IMG/VR virus record: IMGVR_UViG_3300050821_000641
Location: 1-46,806 of that record
Source: a virus
Direction: 5' to 3' (one strand)
DNA length: 46,806 nt
The position numbers were made by a program, and so were the translations under genes. Positions 9,564 through 44,709 of the stretch are shown piece after piece (position 1 is the stretch's first letter; each line of letters opens with the position of its first letter). The notes beneath the pieces were generated by a model, which was not told the DNA's origin, searched no databases, and saw nothing but the letters and a program-made list of their open reading frames with translations.

Positions 9564-11675
9564 TTATAATGCGGTCGTGTCACCGAAGCCGGTATTGCCG
9601 GGTGTTCCTTCGGTTTCTAGATTAGCTAGCCCGTGAGATATAGCCTGACGGGTAACTTCGGCAGTAGCTTTACCTAACTGCTTCTGGTCTTCTAGCTTTT
9701 CTTGCTGTTCGAACTGGGCCTGCTGCGATTGCTTTTGCGCTCCTATCTGTTGCGCCTGCAATGCGGCGGGAGAGTTAGCATCATGCTTCTGCTTTTCTTC
9801 CGGTGTCATCTTGCGTAAGAAGTCCTGACTGAACTTCCAGCCAGCGGCATCTACGAACGCCTTGAAGATAGCAACACCGTCGAACATATAGCCGCCGTCC
9901 GTAATGTTCTGAACGAAGGTTGGGTTGTTCAACAGTTGCATGATTAAAGGTAGAGCCTGTGCCATTTCTTTCTTAGCGCCCAAATGAGCGCCAGCTAGCA
10001 CTTCGTACTCTATCTTCGCGTTTCTGTATTCGATGTGATCTACCTTGTAAGCCTCTCCTAGCTCTTCGCCTAATGTGTCACGAAGAACAGAAGTCGGTAG
10101 AAGGTCGTTGTTAAGTTCATCCATCAGGTACAGCCACGGGACGAAAATCTGACGAATGAATCGTCCGTCCGGACCGTCTAGACGAGATGCGTTAGCTTGA
10201 ACAACGGCGGCAGCGCCCGTTCCCGAACGCATACCGGTTGATCTGATTCCTGCTGCGCCTGCGCCCTGAATTACCTGCTCGTTAGCGCCTGATGTAGCGG
10301 CAGCGGATGCTTGAGCTTGCTGAATGAACTGCCACGCTTCGGCAGGCACAGGAGGCATCTGCAAAAACTTAAACGCCTTGTCAACATCCTCGTCAACGTC
10401 AATGATCTTACCCTGACCCCAACGAGTGTTTTGAGTTAGTGTATTGAAACCTTTCTTGCGAACGGCAGTCGGCTGTAGCCCATAAGACAACAAGTCGAGT
10501 GCTAGATTCGTGACCCCTTGTTCTACGAGTTGCTCACTCCCGATCAAAAGGCCAAGTCCCTGCCCGTAAAATGCGTCCGGAATGTTTCTCCAGTTGGCAG
10601 ATAAGAATGGGATTTTCCCGTATGGATTGACTTCGTTACGAATCAAGATGTTGTGACCGTTGAATGACAGCACAACAATGACACGATCATTGTCCCAACG
10701 CTCAAGAATTTCCATCGGCTGTTCAAGCAAGTCTGCCGATGTCTTGTGGTTTCTAGGAACGGCGTGCTGAATATATCCGCGCATTGCTTCCGGAATCGTA
10801 AGCGATATATTATCCCCGCCCGCTGATACCGGCTTCATGAAGAAGCTTCTTAGGACAAGCTCTTCTGGAATGTCGTAACCTTCGACACCGCGCAAGTTAT
10901 CCAGATCAGAATATGTTGCGTAGTCTCTATAGACAACCCATTTAGCGTTGCGAATATCCCCGACGCGAGTCGAAGGATCGACCAGAACCGACCGTATGTC
11001 ACAGTATTTAATCCAAGGACGAGAGTATAACTTCTCGATATATTCGATTACCACTTCGTCCGAATCCGGGGTGTCAATCAATACCGGCTTCTGGTCTAGC
11101 GGGCTCGTCTCGACTATCTGAGCCGCCTTGCGACGGTAGGTCTTCTGTTTCTTTTTGTGTTCTAGATAACCCCACTTCATAATGCAGGTTCCTAGAAGGG
11201 CCATCTGGTCTAAAGCGCGTTCTGCTTCCTCTTCGAACTTCATCTGCCCAAGTTGAGCAGAGAAGAGCGCAGTCTTAGCGCGTATTATTTCTTGAGTCGT
11301 TCCCGGAAGCGGACGCAATGTGAACGGAGGGTCTTCATAGAAGATTCCGCCCATAAGCTTCGGAACGATACTGCTAATGTGATTCGATACGATGAACTTC
11401 GGAACGTTAGCCTGTCCAACGTTTCCGCCGTCGAATGCCGAGGCTGACGCCGGTGACTGATATATGGTATCAGCGAGTGTCCACCCTGCGGCCCACTGAT
11501 TGATGTTAACAAAGTTATCGGCTACTGCTGTATCATCTAGAACTAGCTTAACCGCAGCGCGATCATCATATTCCCAAATACCTGTTTCTTCATCTTTAGA
11601 AAGATTGTCTTCGGTAATCTCTGCCGCAGGCTCGATGTATAGTTCGTTCTGCTTGGCTGTTAGGTCTTCGCTCAC
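9564..11675 (-). CDS. Portal protein
   Basis: A 703-aa protein starting with a GTG that overlaps the terminase stop (TTGTGAGC); GAGGG lies upstream of it. The size, the position right after TerL, and a large alpha/beta core with a long C-terminal Gln-rich coiled segment (QQIGAQKQSQQAQFEQQEK) fit a podovirus-type portal. The segment IRNEVNPYGKIPF with GQGLGLLIGSEQLVEQGVTN is a typical portal core segment. It forms the dodecameric DNA channel at one capsid vertex and docks the terminase. Confidence 0.88.
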   Translation of the reverse strand: MSEDLTAKQNELYIEPAAEITEDNLSKDEETGIWEYDDRAAVKLVLDDTAVADNFVNINQWAAGWTLADTIYQSPASASAFDGGNVGQANVPKFIVSNHISSIVPKLMGGIFYEDPPFTLRPLPGTTQEIIRAKTALFSAQLGQMKFEEEAERALDQMALLGTCIMKWGYLEHKKKQKTYRRKAAQIVETSPLDQKPVLIDTPDSDEVVIEYIEKLYSRPWIKYCDIRSVLVDPSTRVGDIRNAKWVVYRDYATYSDLDNLRGVEGYDIPEELVLRSFFMKPVSAGGDNISLTIPEAMRGYIQHAVPRNHKTSADLLEQPMEILERWDNDRVIVVLSFNGHNILIRNEVNPYGKIPFLSANWRNIPDAFYGQGLGLLIGSEQLVEQGVTNLALDLLSYGLQPTAVRKKGFNTLTQNTRWGQGKIIDVDEDVDKAFKFLQMPPVPAEAWQFIQQAQASAAATSGANEQVIQGAGAAGIRSTGMRSGTGAAAVVQANASRLDGPDGRFIRQIFVPWLYLMDELNNDLLPTSVLRDTLGEELGEAYKVDHIEYRNAKIEYEVLAGAHLGAKKEMAQALPLIMQLLNNPTFVQNITDGGYMFDGVAIFKAFVDAAGWKFSQDFLRKMTPEEKQKHDANSPAALQAQQIGAQKQSQQAQFEQQEKLEDQKQLGKATAEVTRQAISHGLANLETEGTPGNTGFGDTTAL

Positions 11676-13717
11676 AATGCCCTCATACCGTTACCGCCGA
11701 ATATGTCTCCCGGTCTGCGCTGAACTTGCGGCGCGTCAACCGGAGGCGGGACTTGTTGTGGCCCACCGAAATACATCTCGTATTTTCGCTTGCGCAAATT
11801 CTGTTCCTTTTGCGCTTTTACGAGAGCCTGCATCTCTTCGGAATCTTTTGATCCGTCGAGTGGTGTAGGCAAGAAGAATGACAAATACGAAAGGGCATCC
11901 GGGATGTCATCCTTTCGACCGCGATTCTTCCTCTCTCCGGTGTATCTTGTAAGCTGAGAGAAGGTCTCGTCGAGCCATGCCCCGACAACGAAATACAATC
12001 TGTTATCGGATAATAGCGATTCGAGTCCCTTAATCCTATTGCGCTTTGCGTTCTCTTGTAGCGCCGGTGGTTTCCAAAAGATATCCAACGTTGCGTCAAA
12101 ACGGACAGCTACCCTTGCAATCTCAAGGTTAAGTAGCTCCGCGCCGCTTGACTTTTCGATTAACGTCTTCTTGGGATTCCACTTCTTATTGAATGAAACT
12201 ATTTGAAGAGCTAGCTCCGATGCACGCCATCGCCCGTAGATTATCTCTAGAACGCAGATGCCCCAGATACCGTCTTTGAAATATACTCGGCCAGCTACTC
12301 CGACCGAAAAATCTGAGTACTTGTTTGCTGATAGCGCCCAGTCCCAACAGATGAAAACGTCTCCATCTTTAGGGGCGTTCGCCGTCGGGATCATGTGAGC
12401 CCTTAGCGCGTCTTCATCGAATTGGACACGGAAGCCGTCGTCCTTATCCAGACCGGCGGGCTCGTTAAGCTGCTGGCAGCGGAAGCTTCTCTCGTTATTC
12501 AATAGCTTCTTGCGAAGCTTGTTGAAGTTTTCCTTCTGAGGGAAGGTGACAACCACCATGTCTGCGGTAAGTTCCTTTAGCGGAACTTCCACGAACTCTG
12601 GCTTAACTATCCAGCAAGCGCGACAGAAATACTTAATCGCGTTCTCTTGCGGGTCTTGTCGATAGCTTTCTAGACGGGTACCGTACCAGTCGTTAGGAAA
12701 GTATCTCGTACCGATATTATCGGAAAATCCCCAAGGGTCTAGAACGTTGTCTGTACCGTCGAACTTCTCTTTCAAAGCGATACGAACTTCTTCGCTATTT
12801 GAGTTAGAGTCGTCTACAACGTCATCACCTTTCTTAACGTCGCAGTGGTTTCCTGACAAGCTTGAGTCAATAGAGTTGACCCAGATTGTAGGAGCAACCT
12901 GTGTATGCTTCCTTACGTCTAGAAGCAAAGGTTCTTTCGAGGTTCCGTCTACCCCCCTGACAATATACTCGGGGAATAGAAACTGAAAGTCAGTCGGCTC
13001 AGCACCGTCGGCTAGATACAGATAACCCTTGATTTCTTTTAAGAATCCGATACCGAGTTTGTAAACTCCGGTAATTAAAAATATTCGTATATCAGGGACG
13101 TTTATCATCCACTGAATCGCGTCGATCCCGTCTATGGTAGACTTGTAGAATCCACGGGGGTCGAGAAGGATCATCTCCTTTGTCGGGACGCCGCGCTCAT
13201 CGAAACGCTCTTGCCTATCTATGGCTTCGTGAACGTCTTTGATCGTGTAGCCTTCCGGGAAGGCACTGTCAAAGTTTTTCTTAACAAACTGGTCGCATAC
13301 GATCTGGTGAACTTCCGGAATAACATCCTTTCCGAGAATTTCGCACAGCCAGAACAAATCCTTTCTAGCGCGATCTCTCAGAGCAAGCCAGTTGTCGAAC
13401 GCAGCCTGAAGGTCTTCGATTGTATCGTGTACGGGCTTTTCAGCGCCGAAGAAACCGTGAGCAGAAGGGTTAATAACCTTCTTCTTTTTCTTGTTAGCTG
13501 GAGACGTACGACGATCATCTTCTTCTTGCGTCTCTTTCCACTCTACGCCGGTGAACATCTTGGCGAGAGATAGCTGATCTAGAACTTCAGACTTGAATCT
13601 ATTCTTTCCTGCTATTGCGTCTCTTGCTACTGCTGTTTCATAAAACTGCGGTACTAGATTCTTTCTTACTTTCTCCAGAGCGCGTATTTCGCGCTTCTGT
13701 TCGGGTGTAAACGGCAT
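11672..13717 (-). CDS. terL: Terminase large subunit (ATPase-nuclease)
   Basis: A 681-aa protein. LLDPRGFYKST (residues about 184-194) is a variant Walker A. KKGDDVVDDS (about 295-304) fits Walker B. FICWDWALSANKYSDFSVG (about 456-472) carries the first nuclease aspartate, and RGRKDDIPDALSYL near residue 600 the last acidic cluster. It cuts and pumps phage DNA into the prohead. The N-terminal 80 residues are charged with a lysine tract (about 76-80), possibly for DNA or small-subunit contact. Its stop overlaps the portal start. No small terminase is obvious nearby. Confidence 0.93.
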   Translation of the reverse strand: MPFTPEQKREIRALEKVRKNLVPQFYETAVARDAIAGKNRFKSEVLDQLSLAKMFTGVEWKETQEEDDRRTSPANKKKKKVINPSAHGFFGAEKPVHDTIEDLQAAFDNWLALRDRARKDLFWLCEILGKDVIPEVHQIVCDQFVKKNFDSAFPEGYTIKDVHEAIDRQERFDERGVPTKEMILLDPRGFYKSTIDGIDAIQWMINVPDIRIFLITGVYKLGIGFLKEIKGYLYLADGAEPTDFQFLFPEYIVRGVDGTSKEPLLLDVRKHTQVAPTIWVNSIDSSLSGNHCDVKKGDDVVDDSNSNSEEVRIALKEKFDGTDNVLDPWGFSDNIGTRYFPNDWYGTRLESYRQDPQENAIKYFCRACWIVKPEFVEVPLKELTADMVVVTFPQKENFNKLRKKLLNNERSFRCQQLNEPAGLDKDDGFRVQFDEDALRAHMIPTANAPKDGDVFICWDWALSANKYSDFSVGVAGRVYFKDGIWGICVLEIIYGRWRASELALQIVSFNKKWNPKKTLIEKSSGAELLNLEIARVAVRFDATLDIFWKPPALQENAKRNRIKGLESLLSDNRLYFVVGAWLDETFSQLTRYTGERKNRGRKDDIPDALSYLSFFLPTPLDGSKDSEEMQALVKAQKEQNLRKRKYEMYFGGPQQVPPPVDAPQVQRRPGDIFGGNGMRAL

Positions 13718-23920: not shown

Positions 23921-23995
23921 TGGCTGCGGCGCGTGGACTCGAACCACGATTAGAGCTTTCAGAGAGCCCCGTCCTACCGATTAGACGACATCGCA
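23921..23995 (-). tRNA. tRNA-Gln (CTG)
   Basis: Anticodon loop CTCTGAA reads CAG. CCA is encoded. The D-loop keeps GG and the T-loop is TTCGAGT. One A-C mismatch occurs in the acceptor stem. Confidence 0.95.
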
Positions 23996-24003
23996 ATTGA
24001 AAT

Positions 24004-24077
24004 TGGTTGGGTTTAACGAAGGCGCTACTCTTCCACTTCCGCCCTGTGGGACGGCGTGCTCTTTACACTATGACCCA
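24004..24077 (-). other. Degenerate tRNA-like element
   Basis: The ends fit a tRNA (5' TGGGTCA, 3' AACCCA-A-CCA). The D-arm (GTGT AAAGA GCAC) resembles that of tRNA-Ile(GAT), but the D-loop lacks GG. The anticodon stem CCGTC/GGCGG leaves only a 6-nt loop, and no canonical T-arm forms. It sits between the two Gln tRNAs with normal spacing. It is either a decayed tRNA or a non-canonical RNA. Confidence 0.5.
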
Positions 24078-24085
24078 GTAGAAAT

Positions 24086-24160
24086 TGGTTCCGGCGCTAG
24101 GACTCGAACCTAGATTCACGCTTTCAAAGAGCGTCGTCCTACCGGTTAGACGACATCGGA
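24086..24160 (-). tRNA. tRNA-Gln (TTG)
   Basis: Anticodon loop CTTTGAA reads CAA. CCA is encoded. The T-arm and D-arm are canonical (GG in the D-loop, TTCGAGT in the T-loop). Confidence 0.95.
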
Positions 24161-24167
24161 ATAGAAA

Positions 24168-24259
24168 TGGAGGAAGGCCAGAGAATCGAACTCTGTCACG
24201 CCCATTTAGAACGTGTCATCGTTTTCAGGACGAGTAGGCACCATTGCCCGCTGCCTTCC
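24168..24259 (-). tRNA. tRNA-Ser (TGA), C33
   Basis: A class II tRNA with a long variable arm, alignable to the adjacent Ser(CGA). Anticodon loop CCTGAAA gives anticodon TGA with C instead of the near-universal T at position 33. The discriminator is T, unusual for Ser. CCA is encoded. Confidence 0.85.
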
Positions 24260-24267
24260 ATAATATT

Positions 24268-24354
24268 TGGCGGAACGCCAGTGAGTCGAACACTGTCACG
24301 CTAAAGCGTGTCACGATTTTCGAGATCGTTAGGCACCGTTGCCTGCTGCGCTCC
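24268..24354 (-). tRNA. tRNA-Ser (CGA)
   Basis: Class II with a long variable arm. Loop CTCGAAA reads TCG. Discriminator G and CCA are encoded, as expected for Ser. Confidence 0.95.
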
Positions 24355-24357
24355 AAA

Positions 24358-24479
24358 TAATCGCCCTCGGGTTTCAACCGTCTCGTACGGGACCGCACGT
24401 CCGGTCTTATCACCGGAATATTCAATCCGACCGCAACGGAATATAGTACCGTTCGTCGGCACTCGCATGAAGGCGATTA
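24358..24479 (-). other. Structured spacer RNA, 8-bp closing stem
   Basis: TAATCGCC and GGCGATTA close a 122-nt segment holding hairpins ACGG/CCGT and CCGGT/ACCGG. A 55-aa frame from an ATG at 24468 runs into tRNA-Ser(CGA), but it has no ribosome-binding site. The RNA reading is preferred. Confidence 0.4.
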
Positions 24480-24530
24480 CGGCTTTGACGACGCCGTGCC
24501 GGAATCAGGCCCGATTTATCGGGTACAAAT

Positions 24531-24616
24531 TGGCGGAGTGAGGATGACTCGAACATCCACGTCCTTTCGGACGACAGTTTAGCAAACTGTTCCGGCTACC
24601 GTTTCGGCACCACTCC
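24531..24616 (-). tRNA. tRNA-Ser (GCT)
   Basis: Class II. Loop TTGCTAA reads AGC and AGT. Acceptor GGAGTGG/TCACTCC, discriminator G, encoded CCA. Confidence 0.95.
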
Positions 24617-24617
24617 A

Positions 24618-24800
24618 TTATCTTAACTTCAAATTTTCAGACGATGAAATAAAATGAGTCGTCACACCATCCGTGTTTGCGGGATGGATATAGAAGTGGA
24701 AAGTTCCATCTGAAAGCTTTTCAATCCGAAGCGCATGATCGATAACTGGATATGGCTTACGATTCCAGTTTGCTTCGAAGTAATCAAACAGTTCTTTCAT
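24618..24800 (-). CDS. Small protein directly behind tRNA-Trp
   Basis: A 60-aa protein, MKELFDYFEANWNRKPYPVI then HFYIHPANTDGVTTHFISSS. The ATG follows the tRNA-Trp CCA after 5 nt, with no ribosome-binding site. The longer frame into the tRNA is rejected. It ends 2 nt before tRNA-Ser(GCT). Function unknown; translation is probably leaderless once the tRNA is cut out. Confidence 0.75.
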   Translation of the reverse strand: MKELFDYFEANWNRKPYPVIDHALRIEKLSDGTFHFYIHPANTDGVTTHFISSSENLKLR

Positions 24801-24805
24801 AAATT

Positions 24806-24879
24806 TGGCAGGCCGTGGGAGAGTCGAACTCCCGCTCTTCGGTTTGGAGGCGAATGTGCTTCCGTAACACTTACAGCCT
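24806..24879 (-). tRNA. tRNA-Trp (CCA)
   Basis: Loop CTCCAAA reads TGG. Acceptor AGGCTGT/ACGGCCT, discriminator G. Canonical D and T loops. Confidence 0.95.
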
Positions 24880-24883
24880 AAAT

Positions 24884-24944
24884 TGGAGTCGTATGAGTGT
24901 CGGCGCGATCTTGCCAACCGTGCGCGGGCTCGCCCTATTACGAC
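24884..24944 (-). other. 61-nt tRNA-like element with CCA, no T-arm
   Basis: GTCGTA pairs with TACGAC as an acceptor-like stem, followed by T and CCA. Inside are only two hairpins (GGG/CCC and GCGC/GCGC), so the T-arm is missing. It is the shortest tRNA-shaped element in the array that still ends in CCA. Confidence 0.45.
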
Positions 24945-24974
24945 GTTCGGGTCTGAGCACTCTTTCTAGAAACT

Positions 24975-25048
24975 TGGACCGGCGTAGCGGAATCAAACCG
25001 CTGTTTGATGTTTTGCAGACATCAGTCTTATCACTTGACGAACGCCGT
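24975..25048 (-). tRNA. tRNA-Cys (GCA)
   Basis: Loop CTGCAAA reads TGC. The discriminator T fits Cys. The D-loop AAGTGATAA has no GG, and the T-loop is TTTGATT (C56 lost). Confidence 0.92.
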
Positions 25049-25049
25049 A

Positions 25050-25128
25050 TGGCGGTGATAGCGGGATTCGAACCCGCGATAAGTCCGTCGTGACAGGACG
25101 GCGCGATTGGCCTCTACGCGATATCACC
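25050..25128 (-). tRNA. tRNA-Asp (GTC)
   Basis: Loop CTGTCAC reads GAC. Perfect acceptor GGTGATA/TATCACC, discriminator G. It begins one nucleotide from tRNA-Cys, the tightest spacing in the array. Confidence 0.95.
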
Positions 25129-25137
25129 GTAAAAATT

Positions 25138-25212
25138 TGGCTGGCACCATAGGATTCGAACCTACATCTTCACCGTTAACAGCGGAGCGTCTTACCGTTA
25201 GACGAAGTGCCA
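25138..25212 (-). tRNA. tRNA-Asn (GTT)
   Basis: Loop CTGTTAA reads AAC. Acceptor TGGCACT/GGTGCCA, encoded CCA. One T-T mismatch in the anticodon stem. Confidence 0.95.
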
Positions 25213-25223
25213 ACAGAAAAATT

Positions 25224-25310
25224 TGGTGGATAGGGCACGACTCGAACGTGCGTAGGTCCAAGGACCGTCAAGGTTACAGCTTGGTGTAATTGCCGCTATA
25301 CGACCTATCC
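25224..25310 (-). tRNA. tRNA-Tyr (GTA)
   Basis: Class II with a long variable arm, as usual for bacterial Tyr. Loop CTGTAAC reads TAC. Acceptor GGATAGG/CCTATCC, discriminator A. Confidence 0.95.
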
Positions 25311-25316
25311 AAAATC

Positions 25317-25562
25317 TTATTGCAAGAAACTTGTTTGCTGACTCGACATCGACGCTGTGTTCTGTTGATGCTGACAGATAACCGTCGGGTAAATCGGGTC
25401 TACGTAATACGGCTGCGGATAAACCGTAGGCTGCGAAGCAGGAATCGGTTGCGTTTGTGGCGCAAAGGTGATAATCATCGGACGCGCTTCGAGCAACTGA
25501 ACTCTCATCTTCAGTTCAGCAACTTCCTTTTCGAGTTGTTCGATCTTTTGCTTTTGTGTCAT
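25317..25562 (-). CDS. Small leucine-zipper-like protein behind tRNA-Glu
   Basis: An 81-aa protein. Residues 1-30 (MTQKQKIEQLEKEVAELKMR) form a heptad coiled coil; the rest is Pro/Tyr/Gln-rich. The ATG follows the tRNA-Glu(TTC) CCA after 6 nt and has no ribosome-binding site. Oligomeric small protein of unknown role. Confidence 0.75.
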   Translation of the reverse strand: MTQKQKIEQLEKEVAELKMRVQLLEARPMIITFAPQTQPIPASQPTVYPQPYYVDPIYPTVICQHQQNTASMSSQQTSFLQ

Positions 25563-25568
25563 AAAATT

Positions 25569-25642
25569 TGGTAGGGCTGGAGAGAATCGAACTCTCATGA
25601 ACAAGTTGAAAGCCTGTCATGCTACCATTGCATCACAACCCC
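25569..25642 (-). tRNA. tRNA-Glu (TTC)
   Basis: Loop CTTTCAA reads GAA. Acceptor GGGGTTG/CAGCCCT with discriminator A. Canonical D-loop GG and T-loop. Confidence 0.95.
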
Positions 25643-25646
25643 AAAT

Positions 25647-25721
25647 TGGTTCTCAGAGAAGGAGTCGAACCTTCACTACACGGTTATCGGCCATGCGTGC
25701 TAACCTTTACACTACCCGAGA
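25647..25721 (-). tRNA. tRNA-Ile (GAT), C33
   Basis: Loop CCGATAA gives anticodon GAT (codon ATC) with C at position 33 instead of T. Acceptor TCTCGGG/TCTGAGA. Its 5' end lies 10 nt from the 3' end of the RNase P RNA. Confidence 0.85.
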
Positions 25722-25730
25722 ATAGAAACT

Positions 25731-26012
25731 TTGTGGCGAACAATAGCCGGGATTTTGTCGAGGGCTATCATTCATCTTTGCTCTCACCCGCCGGTCAAAG
25801 ATTGGATCGATCTACCGGCCTACTTGAGATTGCACAGTCAGGGAGTGCCTTCGCTTGAATGAGCCGGGATGGTGCTCGACCGGATGACCGGTGCGTTCCC
25901 AACCGACTACGAAGCCTTACCCGTCGCATTGCTGCGCTCGCAACTTCCACGATGACTTGACCCGTGTGTCCCGAACTTCCTCTGTTTCCAGCGATAGCCT
26001 AGTTCACCACAA
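25731..26012 (-). ncRNA. rnpB: RNase P RNA (compact, phage-encoded)
   Basis: A 282-nt RNA in the tRNA array. P1: TTGTGGTGAAC pairs with GTTCGCCACAA (11 bp). P2: GGCTATC pairs with GATAGCC. P3 is reduced to CTG-GAAA-CAG. The 5' conserved region AGAGGAAGTTCGGGA and the 3' conserved region (GATGAATGATAGCCC, then CGACAAAATCCCGGCTAT) match the bacterial RNase P signature and can form helix P4 with its bulged U. GGTAAGGC and GGGAACGCACCGG match the specificity-domain segments. The usual L15 GGU motif that binds tRNA CCA is not evident. Flanking tRNAs 6-9 nt away suggest that tRNA processing makes its ends. It should cut tRNA 5' leaders, probably with the host protein. Confidence 0.92.
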
Positions 26013-26018
26013 TCAAGA

Positions 26019-26111
26019 TGGTAGTCTCGGTCGGATTCGAACCGACATCACGCTCTAATCTAGAGCTTACAGTTTATAAGGCTGCTGCACTAACCGTTGT
26101 GCTACGAGACT
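26019..26111 (-). tRNA. tRNA with TAT anticodon (Ile), long variable arm
   Basis: Loop CTTATAA gives TAT (codon ATA). A 22-nt variable arm (GCTCTA/AGAGC) makes it class II-shaped, unusual for Ile, and stem pair 31-39 is C-A. Acceptor AGTCTCG/CGAGACT, encoded CCA. It directly precedes the RNase P RNA. The identity is less certain than for other tRNAs. Confidence 0.75.
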
Positions 26112-26116
26112 AAATT

Positions 26117-26191
26117 TGGTAGCCCGCGAGTGAATCGAACACTCATCGCCTCTTTGTAAGAGAGGCAGTCTTGCCGTTGACATAGCAGGCT
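26117..26191 (-). tRNA. tRNA-Val (TAC)
   Basis: Loop CTTACAA reads GTA. Acceptor AGCCTGC/GCGGGCT, encoded CCA, canonical loops. Confidence 0.95.
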
Positions 26192-26197
26192 AAAATT

Positions 26198-26254
26198 TTC
26201 GGCATACAATCTCAGGCTTTAATATGCCTTGAGGCGTTAATTCGCCATGCCGAA
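26198..26254 (-). other. 57-nt structured spacer, two-hairpin closed stem
   Basis: TTCGGCAT pairs with ATGCCGAA around two hairpins (GGCG/CGCC and CTCAAGGC/GCCTGAG). No CCA follows. The shape is that of a tRNA lacking one arm. Confidence 0.45.
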
Positions 26255-26257
26255 CTT

Positions 26258-26333
26258 TGGATGCCGTGACGGGAATCGAACCCGCCTTGTTCCCTTTAGG
26301 AGAGGGACGCTACTTCCAATTAGCTACACGGCA
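26258..26333 (-). tRNA. tRNA-Arg (CCT)
   Basis: Loop CTCCTAA reads AGG. Perfect acceptor TGCCGTG/CACGGCA, discriminator T, encoded CCA. Confidence 0.95.
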
Positions 26334-26339
26334 ATAAAC

Positions 26340-26416
26340 TGGTACTCCCGGCAGGACTCCAACCCGCATCGACAACGTTCGTAGCGTTGCGCCTTTTGCA
26401 ATTAGACCACGGGAGC
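26340..26416 (-). tRNA. tRNA-Arg (ACG)
   Basis: Loop CTACGAA reads CGT. D-loop AATTGCAAA lacks GG and the T-loop is TTGGAGT (C56 to G). The 5' end overlaps the stop of the preceding small gene by 15 nt. Confidence 0.9.
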
Positions 26417-26674
26417 AAAAGAAAACTGTTCAATATTCTGATCGCATTCCGAACACCATGTTGCGCCGTTCGGACTATACTCGATTCTTATAACATCATC
26501 CTGCGGGCATGTGTAAGGACGCCCGGAAGAGAAGAAGGTAACAGTACCATCAAAATTCATGTGAAAGGAATGGCAAGTATATCCTGTTTCACCGTCAGGT
26601 TCTTTCTTTACAACCCCGTTTTCGTCCCATACTAAATAGTGCCGAACGACAACAATGAGGTTTGCTCTCTTCAT
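26402..26674 (-). CDS. Small protein behind tRNA-Lys, overlapping tRNA-Arg
   Basis: A 90-aa protein starting MKRANLIVVVRHYLVWDENG, with CxxC-like GATWCSECDQ near the end. The ATG follows the tRNA-Lys(CTT) CCA after 4 nt without a ribosome-binding site. The last codons lie inside tRNA-Arg(ACG), so mRNA and tRNA compete for the same transcript. Function unknown. Confidence 0.75.
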   Translation of the reverse strand: MKRANLIVVVRHYLVWDENGVVKKEPDGETGYTCHSFHMNFDGTVTFFSSGRPYTCPQDDVIRIEYSPNGATWCSECDQNIEQFSFAPVV

Positions 26675-26678
26675 AAAT

Positions 26679-26753
26679 TGGTGGATCGCCACAGAATTGA
26701 ACTGTGTCCCCGCACGTTAAGAGCGTGGTATGCTTCCGTAACACCTGCGATCC
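26679..26753 (-). tRNA. tRNA-Lys (CTT)
   Basis: Loop CTCTTAA reads AAG. Perfect acceptor GGATCGC/GCGATCC, T-loop TTCAATT, encoded CCA. Confidence 0.95.
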
Positions 26754-26757
26754 GAAA

Positions 26758-26813
26758 TTTGACATCTGTTGTTGCGGAGTAGTGTCCACTCCGGACGATT
26801 ACTTGTCGTCAAA
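26758..26813 (-). other. 56-nt structured spacer, two-hairpin closed stem
   Basis: TTTGAC and GTCAAA can close two hairpins: GACGA/TCGTC with a 7-nt loop and CGGAGT/ACTCCG with a 7-nt loop. The first hairpin competes with the closing stem. Size and shape match the 26198-26254 element. Confidence 0.4.
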
Positions 26814-26817
26814 CTAA

Positions 26818-26908
26818 TTCGGACTCCGGTCATATCTTACGGTTAGACCGTCTTAGCAATCCACAAAGATGTACCGTAAGCGGGAACCTCTGTGCGAGCG
26901 CGTCCGAA
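26818..26908 (-). other. 91-nt structured spacer
   Basis: TTCGGAC pairs with GTCCGAA, and CTTACGG with CCGTAAG inside. It directly abuts the small gene below it on the minus strand (26911). It is tRNA-sized but has no recognisable T-loop. Confidence 0.4.
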
Positions 26909-26910
26909 AA

Positions 26911-27156
26911 TTACTTAGCGAAGTTCGCATCGGAAACATTGTTCCCGGAAAGAACTACCTGCTGAATTGCTAACGGCTGTGCCGCCGTATACAAATTGTA
27001 AACGCCATCAGCTAAACCGGTAAAGGAGTAGTTCTTGCTTGCGTCGGCAACAGTCATGTCCGGTGTAGGAAAAGAGTAATCACCTACCGGACAGATGTAA
27101 ACAATCTCACCTACAGTGCCCGCGCCTACGTTACCGCTGATCGAATGCGTTGCCAT
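26911..27156 (-). CDS. Small Ig/carboxypeptidase-regulatory-like protein
   Basis: An 81-aa protein: MATHSISGNVGAGTVGEIVY, ADASKNYSFTGLADGVYNLY and ends DANFAK. The pattern fits one small beta-sandwich domain (carboxypeptidase-regulatory or SpaA-like). AGAGGT precedes the ATG, unlike other small genes in this array. The upstream frame into tRNA-Lys(TTT) is rejected. Confidence 0.75.
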   Translation of the reverse strand: MATHSISGNVGAGTVGEIVYICPVGDYSFPTPDMTVADASKNYSFTGLADGVYNLYTAAQPLAIQQVVLSGNNVSDANFAK

Positions 27157-27170
27157 ATTACCTCTAATGT

Positions 27171-27246
27171 TGGTCGGTCGCCAGAGACTCGAACTCTGAA
27201 CCCACAGCTTAAAAGGCTGGTATGTTGCCTCTAACACCTGCGACCG
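27171..27246 (-). tRNA. tRNA-Lys (TTT)
   Basis: Loop CTTTTAA reads AAA. Acceptor CGGTCGC/GCGACCG, encoded CCA, canonical loops. Confidence 0.95.
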
Positions 27247-27247
27247 A

Positions 27248-27321
27248 TGGAGCCAAAGGAAGGAATCTAACCTTCGATTGTTCTTTACCAAAGAACTGTT
27301 TTAACACTAAACTACTTCGGC
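27248..27321 (-). tRNA. tRNA-Thr (GGT)
   Basis: Loop TTGGTAA reads ACC. D-loop AGTGTTA lacks GG and the T-loop is TTAGATT (C56 to A). Spacing to tRNA-Lys is 1 nt. Confidence 0.92.
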
Positions 27322-27322
27322 G

Positions 27323-27396
27323 TGGAGCAGGACAAGCGAATCGAACGCTTGTATCATCTTTACGAGAGATGCATAATGCCACTATATTAGTCCTGC
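27323..27396 (-). tRNA. tRNA-Thr (CGT)
   Basis: Loop CTCGTAA reads ACG. Perfect acceptor GCAGGAC/GTCCTGC. D-loop GG and TTCGATT are kept. Confidence 0.95.
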
Positions 27397-27406
27397 AAAA
27401 TCGTTT

Positions 27407-27461
27407 GGCAGTTCTTGGAGCCGAAGCATTGTCTAGAATAACTTCGGTTATCGTCTCTGCC
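27407..27461 (-). other. 55-nt structured spacer
   Basis: GGCAG pairs with CTGCC. Inside, ATAAC/GTTAT with a CGAA loop competes with CCGAAG/CTTCGG. It fills the gap between tRNA-Thr(CGT) and tRNA-Glu(CTC). Confidence 0.35.
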
Positions 27462-27463
27462 TC

Positions 27464-27538
27464 TGGTCGGCTCAACGGGAATCAAACCCGTATCCCTTTC
27501 GTGAGAGGAAAGGATGCTTATCATTGCACCATGAACCT
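27464..27538 (-). tRNA. tRNA-Glu (CTC)
   Basis: Loop CTCTCAC reads GAG. D-loop AATGATAA lacks GG, the T-loop is TTTGATT (C56 lost), and the first acceptor pair is A-G. Confidence 0.9.
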
Positions 27539-27592
27539 AACGATCTGGGATGCCCGCCCTTTCGTTTACACACCGGGTTAGGGCCACAGAAT

Positions 27593-27667
27593 TGGAGCGG
27601 AATGTCGGCTCTGCCCCGACACATTCAGTTTGGAAGACTGACATGCTACTGTTAACATCAATCCCGC
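27593..27667 (-). tRNA. tRNA-Gly (TCC), T-loop GGCAGAG
   Basis: Loop CTTCCAA reads GGA. The T-stem GTCGG/CCGAC closes a T-loop GGCAGAG that lacks TTC altogether; the D-loop TAACAGTA has no GG. Acceptor GCGGGAT/ATTCCGC. The most divergent functional-looking tRNA of the set. The 54-nt gap before it (27539-27592) holds a weak hairpin. Confidence 0.85.
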
Positions 27668-27675
27668 TTAGAAAC

Positions 27676-27749
27676 TGGTCCTCACTGTTCGAATCGAACG
27701 AACACTGCTCGTGTTTCAGGCGAGAGTGCGACCACTACACCAAATGAGG
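27676..27749 (-). tRNA. tRNA-Phe (GAA)
   Basis: Loop CTGAAAC reads TTC. Acceptor CCTCATT/AGTGAGG, canonical T-arm; one C-A pair at 31-39. Confidence 0.95.
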
Positions 27750-27750
27750 A

Positions 27751-28437
27751 TTAAAATAAATTGTCTTCTGTCGTACGTCGTCTCGGGAATTCAATCGAGA
27801 ACGTTAGCGATACTCCGACGCCGAAAGATGTATTGCGTGGGCACGTTACCGCGCCCTCTGTTCCGTCACAAACCGGATTGCCCTGTTGCAGAACGTGCCC
27901 GGCAGCAAACTGCTCGCTGCCACGGTAGCATACCGCGCCGGTGCAACCTAATCTTGTATCTACCTTGATATATCCGCCGGTCAGATGCGATGTCTCAACG
28001 CCGTTCGTAATACCGTTGTTGAACTGTTGAGTGTAGCCAAAGCTTACTCTCGAAGGAAAGCCGAGAACGTAAGTCTTAACAGTTGCTCCAGCTAGAGCGT
28101 ACGCTGCGGTCTTGCTTACCTTCGTTACGCTGTATCCGCTGTCTTCAAGCTTACCGGACAATCCGACTTTATCAGTAAGCCAGACCGTTCCGCCAGCAGA
28201 CGCTATGTTCGCGTGCCCGATTCCTAATCCTACGTGTGTCTCGTACGGAGAGTAGGTATCGTTTAAATCTAGTTCGAACCGGTGAAGAAAAGGAACCTCA
28301 AGTCCGGCTGAAACTCCCGCGCTCATGTTATTGAACTCGTTCGATCCAGATAAACCGAGAAGGACTCTGGTCTGCGCCTTTGCGCTAGGAACCATTAGTG
28401 CCAAGGCTAACAGCAAACTCAGAATGAACTTTTTCAT
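27751..28437 (-). CDS. Exported outer-membrane beta-barrel-like protein
   Basis: A 228-aa protein with AAAGGACAATA before the ATG. MKKFILSLLLALALMVPSAK is a signal peptide with a likely cut after AKA. The rest alternates strands (VGLGIGHANIASAGGTVWLT, SRVSFGYTQQFNNGITNG) and ends in a strand, FGVGVSLTFSIEF, followed by a charged tail. This fits a small outer-membrane barrel. An RNA operon is a strange home for it. Receptor masking, superinfection exclusion or adsorption change are possible roles. Two Cys pairs in the C-half may be disulphides. Confidence 0.7.
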   Translation of the reverse strand: MKKFILSLLLALALMVPSAKAQTRVLLGLSGSNEFNNMSAGVSAGLEVPFLHRFELDLNDTYSPYETHVGLGIGHANIASAGGTVWLTDKVGLSGKLEDSGYSVTKVSKTAAYALAGATVKTYVLGFPSRVSFGYTQQFNNGITNGVETSHLTGGYIKVDTRLGCTGAVCYRGSEQFAAGHVLQQGNPVCDGTEGAVTCPRNTSFGVGVSLTFSIEFPRRRTTEDNLF

Positions 28438-28555
28438 TATTGTCCTTTGCTTAAAAGATTAGACACTCGCAACGCTTTATGCTCTCGGTAGTGTCGAACC
28501 GGCTGGCGCTGATCGCAATAGCTACTTGCGAAGCATCCAGCGAACATCAGAAAAT
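28438..28555 (-). other. Structured leader before the barrel gene
   Basis: The gap between tRNA-Met and the barrel gene holds hairpins TCGCAA/TTGCGA (7-nt loop) inside GCTGG/CCAGC, and GACACT/AGTGTC. It could be a 5' regulatory leader or another tRNA remnant. Confidence 0.35.
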
Positions 28556-28627
28556 TGGTAGCAGAGGCGAGAGTCGAACCCGCGTAGAGCGGCTTATGAG
28601 ACCGCCTTGAATCCCATTCTCCCTGCT
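28556..28627 (-). tRNA. tRNA-Met (CAT), short D-arm
   Basis: Loop CTCATAA reads ATG (or ATA if the C34 is modified to lysidine). Only 15 nt lie between the acceptor and the anticodon stem, so the D-arm is short, but GG and TTCGACT remain. Acceptor AGCAGGG/CTCTGCT. Confidence 0.9.
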
Positions 28628-28628
28628 A

Positions 28629-28702
28629 TGGTGGACAACCGGGGAATCGAACCCCGAACACTAGTGTGCAAAACTAGTAGTATCCCGTTTACCTAGTCGC
28701 CC
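28629..28702 (-). tRNA. tRNA-Ala (TGC)
   Basis: Loop TTTGCAC reads GCA. Acceptor GGGCGAC/GTTGTCC, encoded CCA. The acceptor lacks the usual G3-U70; here G3 pairs with T as a wobble, which may serve. Confidence 0.92.
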
Positions 28703-28918
28703 GAAATTTAATGCCGTTATAACGCCACGGCTTTACCCGTCCTACCTTTTGAGGGAATCGGGACAGCGTTTCGATGTATGCACGCTAGGAGCATGGTATT
28801 GCTCTGACATTTGTGTGTCTTACTCCGTGCAATACATTTCAAATCTGGGCAAGTATATTTCGTTGGCCTCTTCCTAGAAAGGACCGTGGCCTACTTGCTT
28901 GATGGCCGTTTATATAAT
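28703..28918 (-). other. 216-nt structured, gene-free spacer
   Basis: Contains stems GCCGT/ACGGC, GTATTGC/GCAATAC, GAGCA/TGCTC and CAAGTA/TACTTG on the minus strand, some mutually exclusive. A 22-aa frame is not convincing. No canonical tRNA T-loop is seen. Confidence 0.4.
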
Positions 28919-29002
28919 TGGTGCGCCGCGAGGGATTTGAACCCCCACCCCTTTCGAGACCAGTTTCTAAGACTGGCGTGTCTGCCGTTCCACCAGCAGC
29001 GC
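28919..29002 (-). tRNA. tRNA-Leu (TAG)
   Basis: Class II. Loop CTTAGAA reads CTA. Acceptor GCGCTGC/GCGGCGC, T-loop TTCAAAT, encoded CCA. Confidence 0.95.
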
Positions 29003-29011
29003 ATAAACTAA

Positions 29012-29094
29012 TAGCGGGATGCGAGCATAGTTGCGTTGTTTAGGACAAGGCAACATCTTCTGAACGCTCTCTTACCTAACCTCAGAGCCCGCTA
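29012..29094 (-). other. 83-nt tRNA-sized structured spacer
   Basis: A perfect 7-bp acceptor-like stem (TAGCGGG/CCCGCTA). Inside are a D-like hairpin CTCT/AGAG with GG in its loop and a stem GCGTT/AACGC, but no T-loop or CCA. Confidence 0.45.
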
Positions 29095-29098
29095 AACT

Positions 29099-29186
29099 TG
29101 GTAGGCCGCGCCGGATTCGAACCGGCATGGGGTGTTATACCCGGCGGGGTTTAAGCCCGCTATGTCTGCCATTCCATCAGCAGCCT
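29099..29186 (-). tRNA. tRNA-Leu (TAA)
   Basis: Class II. Loop CTTAAAC reads TTA. Acceptor AGGCTGC/GCGGCCT, TTCGAAT T-loop. Confidence 0.95.
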
Positions 29187-29190
29187 ATAA

Positions 29191-29310
29191 TTACACAGGG
29201 TTAGTTAAATAACTCAATCTCTTTGTGAATTGTCTCAGAAGTTTCAGAGCATCTTTGGCGCTCAGATGAAACCCCGGCATGTCATTTAACCATTGTTGAA
29301 ATTCTTTCAT
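29191..29310 (-). CDS. 39-aa small protein
   Basis: MKEFQQWLNDMPGFHLSAKD then a basic helix and LTNPV. TAGGAG lies 5 nt before the ATG, so this is a conventional start. It fits exactly between tRNA-Leu(TAA) and tRNA-Leu(CAA). Helical, function unknown. Confidence 0.75.
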   Translation of the reverse strand: MKEFQQWLNDMPGFHLSAKDALKLLRQFTKRLSYLTNPV

Positions 29311-29336
29311 AGCGTCTCCTATTATCTTTCTAATCT

Positions 29337-29419
29337 TGGTCGGTCGCCCCGGAGTCGAACCGGGATGATTTCTCGCCGCTTTTTGAGAACGGTGTGTCTG
29401 CCTATTCCACCAGCAACCG
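29337..29419 (-). tRNA. tRNA-Leu (CAA)
   Basis: Class II. Loop CTCAAAA reads TTG. Acceptor CGGTTGC/GCGACCG, encoded CCA. Confidence 0.95.
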
Positions 29420-29423
29420 ATAA

Positions 29424-29597
29424 TTATTCTGGACGATTCATTCTTTCTTGTTTAGCCGCTCGTCTCAAAATTCTTCGTTCGTCGAGCTTATCCCACAACT
29501 TCAAGACTTGCCAGTAAGAGGATAGCATCACCGCTATCAGGAGCGGGATGACAGCTAGCTTGACAAAGATAACCGGAATCGTGATCGTCTCTTGCAT
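29424..29597 (-). CDS. 57-aa single-span membrane protein behind tRNA-Pro
   Basis: MQETITIPVIFVKLAVIPLL and following residues form one transmembrane helix (about 6-28); the C-half is basic. The ATG follows the tRNA-Pro(TGG) CCA after 3 nt with no ribosome-binding site. Probably leaderless translation. Function unknown. Confidence 0.75.
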   Translation of the reverse strand: MQETITIPVIFVKLAVIPLLIAVMLSSYWQVLKLWDKLDERRILRRAAKQERMNRPE

Positions 29598-29600
29598 AAT

Positions 29601-29674
29601 TGGTAGAGATACCCGGAATTGAACCGGGTGCTCACGCTCCCAAAGCGTGCCGTCGTCCGTCCACTTATATCTCT
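29601..29674 (-). tRNA. tRNA-Pro (TGG)
   Basis: Loop TTTGGGA reads CCA. Perfect acceptor AGAGATA/TATCTCT. Its 5' end overlaps the HNH gene stop by 10 nt. Confidence 0.95.
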
Positions 29675-29994
29675 AAAGAATGATGTATAGCGTGGCAGTT
29701 AGCACAGAGAACATCACACTTTGCTATCTCTGCGAGAAGTGTTAAAACACTGACACTAGCTATACCTGTACATATATCAAAACTTTTAGTTTCAGGTTCT
29801 CTGTGATGAAAACAAAGTGCGCTATGGTGCTTATCGTATCCGCAAACTCTACAACCGCAAATCAGTTTTATCTGATCGACTATACGTTTAAGAAATTTAC
29901 GCCGTTTAGCAACGCGAGCATTCTTAGAGTCTGCTAGTCTTTCTTTGTTCTCTTTGTACCACTTTCTGTGATACGCCCTGCTTGACTGAGACAT
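29665..29994 (-). CDS. HNH endonuclease inside the tRNA array
   Basis: A 109-aa protein. The N-half is basic and helical (RKWYKENKERLADSKNARVA). The nuclease core has CGCRVCGYDKHHSALCFHH and CDVLCANCHAIHH, giving two Cys pairs for zinc and the HNH catalytic residues. The ATG follows the tRNA-Pro(CGG) CCA after 3 nt, with no ribosome-binding site. It may be a free-standing homing nuclease that spread with the tRNA cluster. Confidence 0.85.
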   Translation of the reverse strand: MSQSSRAYHRKWYKENKERLADSKNARVAKRRKFLKRIVDQIKLICGCRVCGYDKHHSALCFHHREPETKSFDICTGIASVSVLTLLAEIAKCDVLCANCHAIHHSLEI

Positions 29995-29997
29995 AGA

Positions 29998-30071
29998 TGG
30001 TCGGGAAGCCGAGAATCGAACTCGGGCCATACGTATCCGAAACGTAGAGACTACCATTATCAGACTTCCCG
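29998..30071 (-). tRNA. tRNA-Pro (CGG)
   Basis: Loop TTCGGAT reads CCG. Perfect acceptor CGGGAAG/CTTCCCG, discriminator A. Confidence 0.95.
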
Positions 30072-30076
30072 TAATA

Positions 30077-30151
30077 TGGGGTGAATGAAGAGATTCGAAC
30101 TCTCGTTCAGCGAGTCACAGTCGCTTGTCCTACCATTGGACGACATCCACC
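30077..30151 (-). tRNA. tRNA-His (GTG)
   Basis: Loop CTGTGAC reads CAC. An extra 5' G (G-1) faces discriminator C, the tRNA-His hallmark, which here is encoded. Acceptor GTGGATG/CATTCAC. Confidence 0.95.
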
Positions 30152-30153
30152 GT

Positions 30154-30275
30154 TGAATCATGCCCGGCGTTCTACCATTAAACTACATAAACTACACGGT
30201 TAGGCTACCCGCCGTACTAGGATTCGAACCTAGACTTCCGGGCTCTTCCGCCTACAAAATTCGTAGGACTTAAAC
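30154..30275 (-). other. Two tRNA halves in permuted order
   Basis: A T-arm half (CTAGG TTCGAAT CCTAG at plus 30217-30233, with GCCCGG before it) lies 5' of a D-arm half (TAGTTTAATGGTAGAAC at 30169-30185, followed by CCGGGC). GCCCGG and CCGGGC would pair as an anticodon stem only in permuted order. The acceptor pairing is weak (ACGG/CCGT). A further hairpin CCTAC/GTAGG leads. It is either a permuted tRNA gene or two fragments. Confidence 0.45.
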
Positions 30276-30276
30276 T

Positions 30277-30352
30277 TGGAGATCGAGGTGGGATTCAAAC
30301 CCACGACAGACTCTTTAGAAGAGAGCCACTCTGTTCGCTGAGTTACTCGATC
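30277..30352 (-). tRNA. tRNA-Arg (TCT)
   Basis: Loop CTTCTAA reads AGA. D-loop AGCGAACA lacks GG and the T-loop is TTTGAAT (C56 lost). Perfect acceptor GATCGAG/CTCGATC. It starts about 2 nt from the predicted P2 transcription start. Confidence 0.92.
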
Positions 30353-30360
30353 ATGAAACC

Positions 30361-30389
30361 ATTCTAACACGACTTCTGATATTTGTCAA
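30361..30389 (-). promoter_or_regulatory. RNA-operon promoter P2
   Basis: -35 TTGACA and -10 TAGAAT, 17-bp spacer, followed by GGTTTCA. The -35 contains the stop codon of the 100-aa gene. The start falls next to the tRNA-Arg(TCT) 5' end. Confidence 0.85.
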
Positions 30390-30688
30390 GCTAAATCTTT
30401 CAGAAGTTCAAAATATTTTTCAGGTATCGCCGCTCCGCTGACAACTACAGTCCGATCCGGAAACTGCAAAGTTCCTTTCTTCTGAATCTCTGGTTTATCT
30501 TTCCAGCCGTAGTCGTAAACTCCGACGACGGTAATTGACCAACAGGGTTTGTTATCCCACGAATCTTTCCGTGGCTTAATAGCCAGAACCTTTCCAATCT
30601 TAAGGACAGCGCAACGACCGAGAGCAGAAGAGTAGACGATGTAGTCGCCTACCGTTATATCCCGACCGAGTTTGTCTTTCGGCACCAT
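30386..30688 (-). CDS. Small conserved phage protein, KOW/SH3-like
   Basis: A 100-aa protein. LGRDITVGDYIVYSSALGRC and AVLKIGKVLAIKPRK look like a small beta-barrel of the type found in phage proteins with KOW-like folds. The ATG follows the tRNA-Thr(TGT) CCA after 6 nt, with no ribosome-binding site. The 3' end carries promoter P2. The role is unknown. Confidence 0.75.
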   Translation of the reverse strand: MVPKDKLGRDITVGDYIVYSSALGRCAVLKIGKVLAIKPRKDSWDNKPCWSITVVGVYDYGWKDKPEIQKKGTLQFPDRTVVVSGAAIPEKYFELLKDLA

Positions 30689-30694
30689 AATGTT

Positions 30695-30768
30695 TGGAGC
30701 ACAATGGACGATTCGAACGCCCGCGACTAAGGTACAAGCTTAGCATACTGCCGCTATATGAATCGTGC
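30695..30768 (-). tRNA. tRNA-Thr (TGT)
   Basis: Loop CTTGTAC reads ACA. Acceptor GCACGAT/ATTGTGC. It is the first tRNA of the operon, about 17 nt from the P1 start. Confidence 0.95.
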
Positions 30769-43704: not shown

Positions 43705-44709
43705 ATGAAACAATATATCGGAATAGCAAGAGATCACTCAGGCTCGATGGCGTCGTTAAGAAACCCGGCAATCTCAGACTACAACGAATCGGTCAAAGCC
43801 ATTAAGACAGCAGCACAAGAAAATAACATCGATACAATCGTATCAACGGTTAAGCTAAGCGGCAACGGAGTCGAAAGAGAAGTGGTCAACTCCGGAATCA
43901 ACAGGCTAAAGCCGATTACCAGCTATCCTACAGACGGCGGGACGCCTTTGTTCGACGCGGTAGGCGAGCTAATCACAATTCTTGAGAAGACGCCGGATGC
44001 GAAGAGCAAAGATGTCACGTTCCTTGTCATGGCTATCACGGACGGAGAAGAAAACTCTTCTGACGTATGGGAGCACACACTCGGACAGAAGATCAAAGAG
44101 TTGCAAGCAACAGACCGCTGGACGTTTGTCTTCCGTGTTCCTCGCGGATACGGTCGTAACCTTGAATCTCTTGGCATCCCATCAGGCAATATTCAAGAGT
44201 GGGAACAGACAGAGCGCGGTCTCCGCGAAGCGTCGGTCGTAACGAGGTCAGCCATCTCGAATTATTACGGAGCGGTCAGCCGTGGCATCCGCGCAAGCAC
44301 AAGCTTCTACGCCGATATGAAGAACGTAACTAAGCGTGAAGTAGCTTCAACGATGACAAATATCTCTAAAGAAGTTCACATCTTCCCGGTTAGAGACAAG
44401 GTTGACATCGCCCCTTTCATAATCTTCAAAACTGGGTCACAGTATGAGAAGGGCACCGCGTTCTACCAGCTAACGAAGACCGAGAAGAAAGTTCAATCTT
44501 ATAAGCTGATCGTCGTACGTAATAAGCAGACCGGAGAAGTTTATGCCGGTCAGTCAGCAAGAGACTTGCTTAACCTTCCGACAACCAGAACGATCCGATT
44601 AGCGCCGGGAGATCACGGCAACTGGGACATCTACATTCAATCGACGAGCACAAACCGAATCCTCATGCCCGGCACTACAGCGCTTTACTGGCCGGACGCA
44701 CGGAGCTAA
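43705..44709 (+). CDS. von Willebrand factor A domain protein
   Basis: A 334-aa protein. ARDHSGSMASL (D10, S12, S14) is the MIDAS metal site; YPTDGGTPLFDAVGEL and MAITDGEENSSDVW complete it. The C-terminal 130 residues are an alpha/beta part (KLIVVRNKQTGEVYAGQSAR). vWA proteins act as metal-dependent scaffolds. Target unknown; next to the dNMP kinase. Confidence 0.88.
   Translation: MKQYIGIARDHSGSMASLRNPAISDYNESVKAIKTAAQENNIDTIVSTVKLSGNGVEREVVNSGINRLKPITSYPTDGGTPLFDAVGELITILEKTPDAKSKDVTFLVMAITDGEENSSDVWEHTLGQKIKELQATDRWTFVFRVPRGYGRNLESLGIPSGNIQEWEQTERGLREASVVTRSAISNYYGAVSRGIRASTSFYADMKNVTKREVASTMTNISKEVHIFPVRDKVDIAPFIIFKTGSQYEKGTAFYQLTKTEKKVQSYKLIVVRNKQTGEVYAGQSARDLLNLPTTRTIRLAPGDHGNWDIYIQSTSTNRILMPGTTALYWPDARS

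Follow-up and report, generated by a model that had tools for sequence, protein, structure and literature searches.

The RNA subunit of ribonuclease P (RNase P) is catalytic, and its gene is counted among the core genes of cells; in vivo, the RnpA protein is required as well. In the literature on phages, host RNase P is found to cleave the transfer RNA precursors (pre-tRNAs) of phage T4, which are separated by spacers of less than 5 nucleotides (nt) (review PMC11143913), the work on phage-linked theta ribozymes treats RNase P as a cellular enzyme (PMC10879173), and the megaphages of a further study had only tRNAs and a transfer-messenger RNA (tmRNA) (PMC8172020). No description of a phage-encoded RNase P RNA was found in the open papers searched, which does not prove its absence elsewhere. 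Here such an RNA is described in the IMG/VR record IMGVR_UViG_3300050821_000641, a linear contig of 46,806 bases that is probably a fragment and whose full length is referred to below as the window. The gene, which is matched by the Rfam family RF00010 and by a covariance model of phage RNAs (R1), occupies, from P1 to P1', 25731..26012 on the minus strand (282 nt) and lies within an array of tRNA genes. The reading preferred here, which is given a probability of roughly two in three, is that this is a class A-derived RNase P RNA that would be co-transcribed with the tRNAs and would recruit the RnpA of the host to cleave the phage's packed pre-tRNAs.

Identity, structure and phage context

Homology of this RNA to bacterial RNase P RNA is close to certain. 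When the stretch of the window from 25640 to 26120 (481 bases) was scanned against 4227 families with Rfam cmscan, RF00010 (RNaseP_bact_a) aligned at 26011-25728 (-) over its full length (model positions 1-367 of 367), with 81.7 bits and an E-value of 2.7e-25; an independent search of the whole record returned the same locus, at E 6.2e-27, as its sole RF00010 match. An original prediction, made from the letters of the DNA, had called an RNase P RNA at this position and had proposed a covariance search as a check; the full-length match bears out the call, and the search is significant although its score is below the gathering cut-off. (It should be noted that this cut-off, 100 bits, is a curation threshold and not a structural feature, and that 3/11 control genomes with an RF00010 match likewise score below it.) Because of this score, a gathering-threshold scan and thus routine annotation overlook the locus, and the RNA is labelled here as a class A-derived variant and not as a standard member. 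The scan of 25640-26120 gave no Rfam match to a hepatitis delta virus (HDV)-like ribozyme.

The outer helices and the core can be read directly from the minus strand, at the positions originally assigned to them. P1 pairs TTGTGGTGAAC (26012-26002) with GTTCGCCACAA (25741-25731) over 11 bp, and 0/2000 shuffles were as good. P2 consists of 7 bp between GGCTATC (25999-25993) and GATAGCC (25769-25763). It is followed by a minimal P3, CTG-GAAA-CAG (25991-25982), whose CAG and CTG are swapped in relatives such as those on contigs L080 and L098. The 5' strand of P4 (25977-25969, within GAGGAAGUUCGGGAC) carries the bulged U at 25974 and forms 8 bp with the 3' strand (25752-25745, within ACAAAAUCCCGGCUA), the two strands belonging to conserved regions I and V (CR-I and CR-V). 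In the Rfam alignment, the 5' strand of P5, CACA (25965..25968, -), pairs with UGUG (25833-25836); this helix was chosen by eye, and it covaries in relatives. The same alignment places a reduced and diverged specificity-domain region (P7-P12) at 25837..25961 (-), with deletions and low identity where the conserved J11/12-J12/13 module would be expected, and the conserved J18/2 sequence AGAUGAAUG, which is common to other phage RNAs, at 25769..25777 (-). P18 is absent upstream of AGAUGAAUG, and P12-P14 form a region that is both smaller than usual and diverged; the shortness of the RNA at 282 nt is due to these two features, not to L15. The original prediction had the GGU of L15 apparently missing, which proved to be mistaken: CGGGU is present at 25790-25786 (-), where it directly precedes the 3' strand of P15, and its GGU is expected to pair with the CCA of tRNA. 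The catalytic domain (P2-P4, J18/2, and P15 with the CCA-binding GGU) has thus been kept, while the specificity domain and P18 have been reduced.

The contig is marked as phage by a gene for the terminase large subunit (11672..13717, -; phrog_38, E 5.9e-39), and it also carries a portal protein gene (9564..11675, -; phrog_1216, E 4.2e-20) and a major head protein (phrog_1357, E 3.4e-4), in agreement with the proposal that the RNA is phage-encoded. The tRNA array spans 23921..30768 (-) and contains 31 tRNA genes, all on one strand, with gaps of 1-11 nt between some of them. The position of the RNA between two tRNA-Ile genes of the same strand is confirmed: the upstream neighbour is tRNA-Ile(UAU) (26019..26111, -), which has a long variable-region insert, and the downstream neighbour is tRNA-Ile(GAU) (25647..25721, -), both with an encoded CCA. 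CCA is encoded in 31/31 of the window tRNAs, and on this basis they look ordinary in the part that is relevant to RNase P.

Among the 31 tRNAs of the array, no tRNA-Gly was found. ARAGORN calls at 24168-24259 (-) a tRNA with the four-base anticodon gaaa, an encoded CCA and no amino acid assignment, which is absent from the Rfam gathering scan. Elsewhere in the window, a phrog_26613 gene is present at 43705-44709 (+) (E 2.8e-87); this family, which is related to Caulobacter phage Cr30 (50% identity), is also found on L068 (1465-2514, -; E 1.6e-82), another contig that bears an RNase P RNA.

Recurrence, the phage-type P4 and the mini form

Motif scans revealed RNase P RNAs in about 40 other IMG/VR contigs, mostly within same-strand tRNA arrays and in many cases with just 1-18 nt between the RNA and a tRNA. 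With a 17-mer taken from the window around CR-I, 20 contigs were found, two of which are recognised by Rfam (L025, 48 bits; L026, 41 bits). The canonical 17-mer found 17 contigs, 14 with an RNase P RNA above the Rfam cut-off; about 8 of these canonical-type RNAs lie inside tRNA arrays, on contigs of 31-463 kb; for others, no tRNA array adjoins the RNA in the stretches covered, and these may be cellular. The third scan, with the 3' end, gave 23 contigs and a match in 11 of the 19 new ones. The fourth, with GAGGAAGTTCGGGAC plus a downstream CAAGTG, also gave 23, mostly shared with the first scan; every one of its loci carries same-strand tRNA genes, 3 to 32 each, and most of its RNAs are not detected by Rfam at all. 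These scans support the view that RNase P RNA recurs among phages in association with tRNA arrays, and they suggest that part of the machinery that matures phage tRNAs is supplied by the phages themselves. On some of the RNA-bearing contigs, such as L075 (RNA near 47-401, tmRNA at 2138-2507), L066 (tmRNA at 7060-7516) and L088, there is a permuted tmRNA as well; L066 and L075 additionally have a nearby tRNA with a CTA anticodon (suppressor or Pyl-like).

Across these phages the sequences of P1 and P2 differ from lineage to lineage, and the pairing is kept in nearly all, with P2 of L068 left unassigned. P4, which is normally almost invariant, is changed on both sides at three pairs in a phage-type group to which many of these RNAs belong. 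Relative to the canonical helix, and presuming an ungapped alignment of both conserved blocks, pair 67-359 goes from A-U to G-C, 68-358 from G-C to U.G (C-G in L094), and 71-356 from C-G to G-C; pair 74-353 is A-U or G-C, and the bulged U is retained. P4 pairing across related phages, which had been named as a test of the original call, is therefore kept with compensated changes; the boundary pair 74-353 is mismatched in L063 and L066. A one-base register shift of the phage P4 was considered and dropped, since in the ungapped comparison the helix is a canonical P4 of 8 bp, in which the U is bulged and the changed pairs are compensated.

The RNA of the fourth scan set is highly conserved and constitutes a mini form, in which the span from CR-I to CR-V measures 154-189 nt in members with a short P12 arm. 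(The corresponding span in Escherichia coli is about 300 nt.) By eye, the mini form has P1, P2, P3, P4, P5 (CUUGU/ACAAG), P15-P17 and CGGGU in L15, with no P18, and also a 6-bp P6 pseudoknot, CAAGUG with CACUUG in L17 (shuffle p 0.0015 in L014). Its specificity domain is a single stem, whose P12 loop is in some members no more than a stub closed by GAAA and in others as long as about 155 nt. The mini form is linked to RNase P through L026, whose RNA is near-identical to the mini RNAs over most of its length and has an RF00010 match (E 8.2e-13). For model R1, 13 mobile-element RNAs were used and the window was excluded; it retrieves the window RNA at 25731-26012 with 65.6 bits and E 5.2e-16. 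It also retrieves nine long phage-type RNAs (L063, L066, L072, L074, L075, L077, L068, L065 and L078), with E-values from 1.4e-14 to 1.6e-4; the E-values of R1 are rough, and many of its members were found with the window 17-mer, so that part of the window's score was selected for.

Several further observations concern the short RNAs and their surroundings. L087:1507-1701, from a 190.7 kb contig (L073/L087), is a canonical-P4 RNase P RNA that, with 118.5 bits, exceeds the Rfam cut-off and has about 157 nt from CR-I to CR-V; the specificity domain has thus also shrunk in an RNA that does not have the phage-type P4. In L008, the mini RNA (7452-7748, -) contains within its P12 arm a nested tRNA (7589-7668, -; Rfam 42.8 bits, E 5e-6; not called by ARAGORN), so that the tRNA sits inside the very enzyme expected to process it. 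L006 has by eye a similar tRNA-like insert, ending GGTTCGAATCCC...CCA, which Rfam did not confirm. The P12 inserts of L012, L016 and L096 are about 115-145 nt long with complementary flanking ends (no Rfam match in L016 and L096), and in L007, L010, L095 and others the P12 loop has instead a direct repeat of AAATTTACTTTGGTATT. The arrays of mini-RNase P phages also include genes for a conserved phrog_850 'RNA-binding protein' (DUF7788/DUF2828; E 1e-130 to 1e-142), at L008:5650-7071 (-), L014:7333-8862 (+) and L095:1883-3301 (-), a candidate partner in RNA processing.

The phage-type 3' end was sought in 84,980 species genomes and was seen on one contig, L094, of a Flavobacteriales metagenome-assembled genome (MAG). 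That MAG has a separate, normal rnpB (209.7 bits), and L094 carries tRNA genes after the RNA. R1 matches the L094 RNA at E 5.6e-30, but L094 is itself a member of R1; in 394 other Bacteroidota genomes, with few candidates scored per genome, R1 found no match. The canonical 3' end, which served as the positive control, was detected in 0/99 Bacteroidota genomes because CR-V differs in that phylum, and the scan of 84,980 genomes is consequently of limited weight. The phage-type P4 is likely, though not proven, to be specific to phages.

A blastn comparison of the window RNA, mini and long phage-type RNAs and three canonical-type RNAs with 50,697 phage records provided no convincing isolate. The window RNA's own matches were 29-nt chance matches, and the others were rejected as bacterial-looking or prophage-boundary records (MaAM05, Acinetobacter MD-2021a), a Salmonella genome record, or unverified, unannotated gut contigs. 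At 111-119 kb, record MW495066.1 (Microcystis phage MaAM05) has fabI, engB, mtgA and glyS together with an unannotated normal RNase P RNA; this 'complete phage genome' looks like bacterial DNA filed as phage. A search with the PF03237 terminase model marked only 2/16 records and was set aside, the range of this model being too limited for jumbo phages.

Partner protein, proposed mechanism and rival explanations

An rnpA gene (PF00825) was found in 0 of 49 phage records (the window, 16 and 32 others), most of which are fragments; the positive controls were detected. Of the original proposal that the phage supplies its own tRNA 5' maturase, at most the RNA half stands, as this is encoded, while the protein half does not, as no RnpA gene was found in the window or in the 48 other phage records. 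Consequently, a host protein would be needed in vivo.

The simplest interpretation is the following course of events. The RNase P RNA would be transcribed within the polycistronic tRNA array and would join the RnpA of the infected cell; the resulting enzyme could then remove the 5' leaders from the densely spaced pre-tRNAs of the phage itself. The short-spacer precedent of T4 argues that tRNA arrays of this kind are RNase P substrates. The 3' end of the RNA would arise when the downstream tRNA-Ile is cleaved, perhaps by this same enzyme, and its 5' end through 3' maturation of the upstream tRNA-Ile. With both ends arising from the processing of neighbouring tRNAs, the enzyme would be released by the very processing that it performs. 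The benefit may be a fast supply of mature phage tRNAs that is independent of the host RNase P RNA.

Several points weigh against this reading. The host RNase P RNA should already suffice, so that no benefit is immediately evident. As the contig is linear and a fragment, rnpA could lie outside it. The 81.7 bits of the RF00010 match are below the gathering cut-off of Rfam, and the part of the specificity domain that recognises the T loop is too diverged for secure alignment. P6, the L17 pseudoknot by which class A is distinguished from class B, is weak in the window (p 0.04 in the shuffle test, with two competing pairings); for ten phage RNAs combined, the pairing before L15 gives a Fisher p of 2e-6. 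(The percentages for P5 and P6 that compare own with other strands rest on helices picked by eye, and only the shuffle test counts.)

The main rival is a decoy or regulator: the phage RNA would bind host RnpA without efficient catalysis, divert it from the RNase P of the host and so slow host tRNA maturation while the phage tRNAs are made or stored. The lack of a detected phage rnpA fits this idea, as the RNA would then act through the host protein or alone, and so does the reduced and diverged specificity domain, strongly so in the mini form. However, the catalytic core and the CCA-binding GGU, neither of which a decoy would need, are the most conserved parts, and the RNA is located among the phage's own substrates; a decoy is thus unlikely. 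It is rather less plausible that the RNA forms an active RNase P whose main substrates are not tRNAs but other phage RNAs, such as messenger RNA leaders or structured RNAs of the array. RNase P does cleave several non-tRNA RNAs (review PMC11143913), and a reduced specificity domain might relax substrate choice; the tight physical link to tRNA genes, and the retention of GGU opposite tRNAs that encode CCA, speak for tRNAs instead. A captured host rnpB that has lost its function and is decaying would explain the score below the Rfam cut-off, the divergence of the specificity domain and the mismatched P4 boundary pair in L063 and L066. This is very improbable and is largely refuted by covariation, as P1, P2 and P4 have stayed paired despite sequence change across many phages, and the same kind of site recurs in dozens of contigs. 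Finally, that the locus is host cellular sequence, through contamination, chimeric assembly or a prophage boundary, does explain most blastn matches in named phage records (MaAM05, Acinetobacter MD-2021a) but is scarcely credible for an RNA that is surrounded by the 31 tRNA genes of a contig which also encodes terminase, portal and head proteins, that shares its layout with many independent phage contigs, and whose P4 type was seen once when 84,980 species genomes were scanned; the MAG concerned has its own normal rnpB, and the phage-type RNA is on a second contig, together with tRNA genes.

If the preferred reading, an enzyme formed with host RnpA that matures phage tRNAs, is taken further, it becomes a proposal on which the odds appear even: that phages of many uncultured lineages have in common an RNase P RNA lineage dedicated to them, with a P4 type of its own and a specificity domain reduced to a stub. 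This lineage would reside in tRNA arrays, make use of the RnpA of the host, mature the tRNAs of the phage and free itself in doing so. Its mini form would be among the smallest bacterial-type RNase P ribozymes known, and current RNA family models overlook it.

Comparison with known systems

The repeated presence of RNase P RNA among phage tRNA genes would imply that the large tRNA sets of phages come together with a capacity for tRNA maturation, and it bears on the old question of the purpose of phage tRNAs. It also provides many natural variants, some with about half the usual core length, from which it may be learned how little of the ribozyme is needed, and it indicates that the RNase P models of Rfam overlook a viral group.

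The closest family is class A RNase P RNA (rnpB; RF00010), of which the window RNA is a diverged derivative. The two share the full-length model match, P1-P5, P15, the bulged U of P4, AGAUGAAUG and the GGU of L15. In contrast to the E. coli RNA of about 377 nt, the window RNA has 282 nt, lacks P18, has a minimal P3 and a reduced, diverged specificity domain, shows three P4 pairs changed on both sides, and is phage-encoded inside a tRNA array. The type T RNase P RNA of archaea (Pyrobaculum) has little or no specificity domain and works with archaeal proteins; in its domain content it is comparable to the mini phage form.

The diverged RNase P RNAs of Candidate Phyla Radiation bacteria (PMC8172020) resemble the window RNA in their sub-threshold scores and in the absence of peripheral helices, including P18. 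However, each of these is the only rnpB of its cell, and some are without the UGG/GGU, whereas the window RNA is viral and has kept its GGU. The nearest published concept is the theta ribozyme proposal for gut phages (PMC10879173): these HDV-like RNAs are likewise phage-encoded ribozymes that are linked to phage tRNA genes, with a proposed role in tRNA processing, but they are self-cleaving, have an unrelated fold and are suggested to serve at tRNA 3' trailers. The tRNA precursors of T4 (PMC11143913) are, as in the window, multimeric phage pre-tRNAs with very short spacers that need RNase P; T4 depends for this on the host enzyme, whereas the phage of the window carries the RNA subunit itself.
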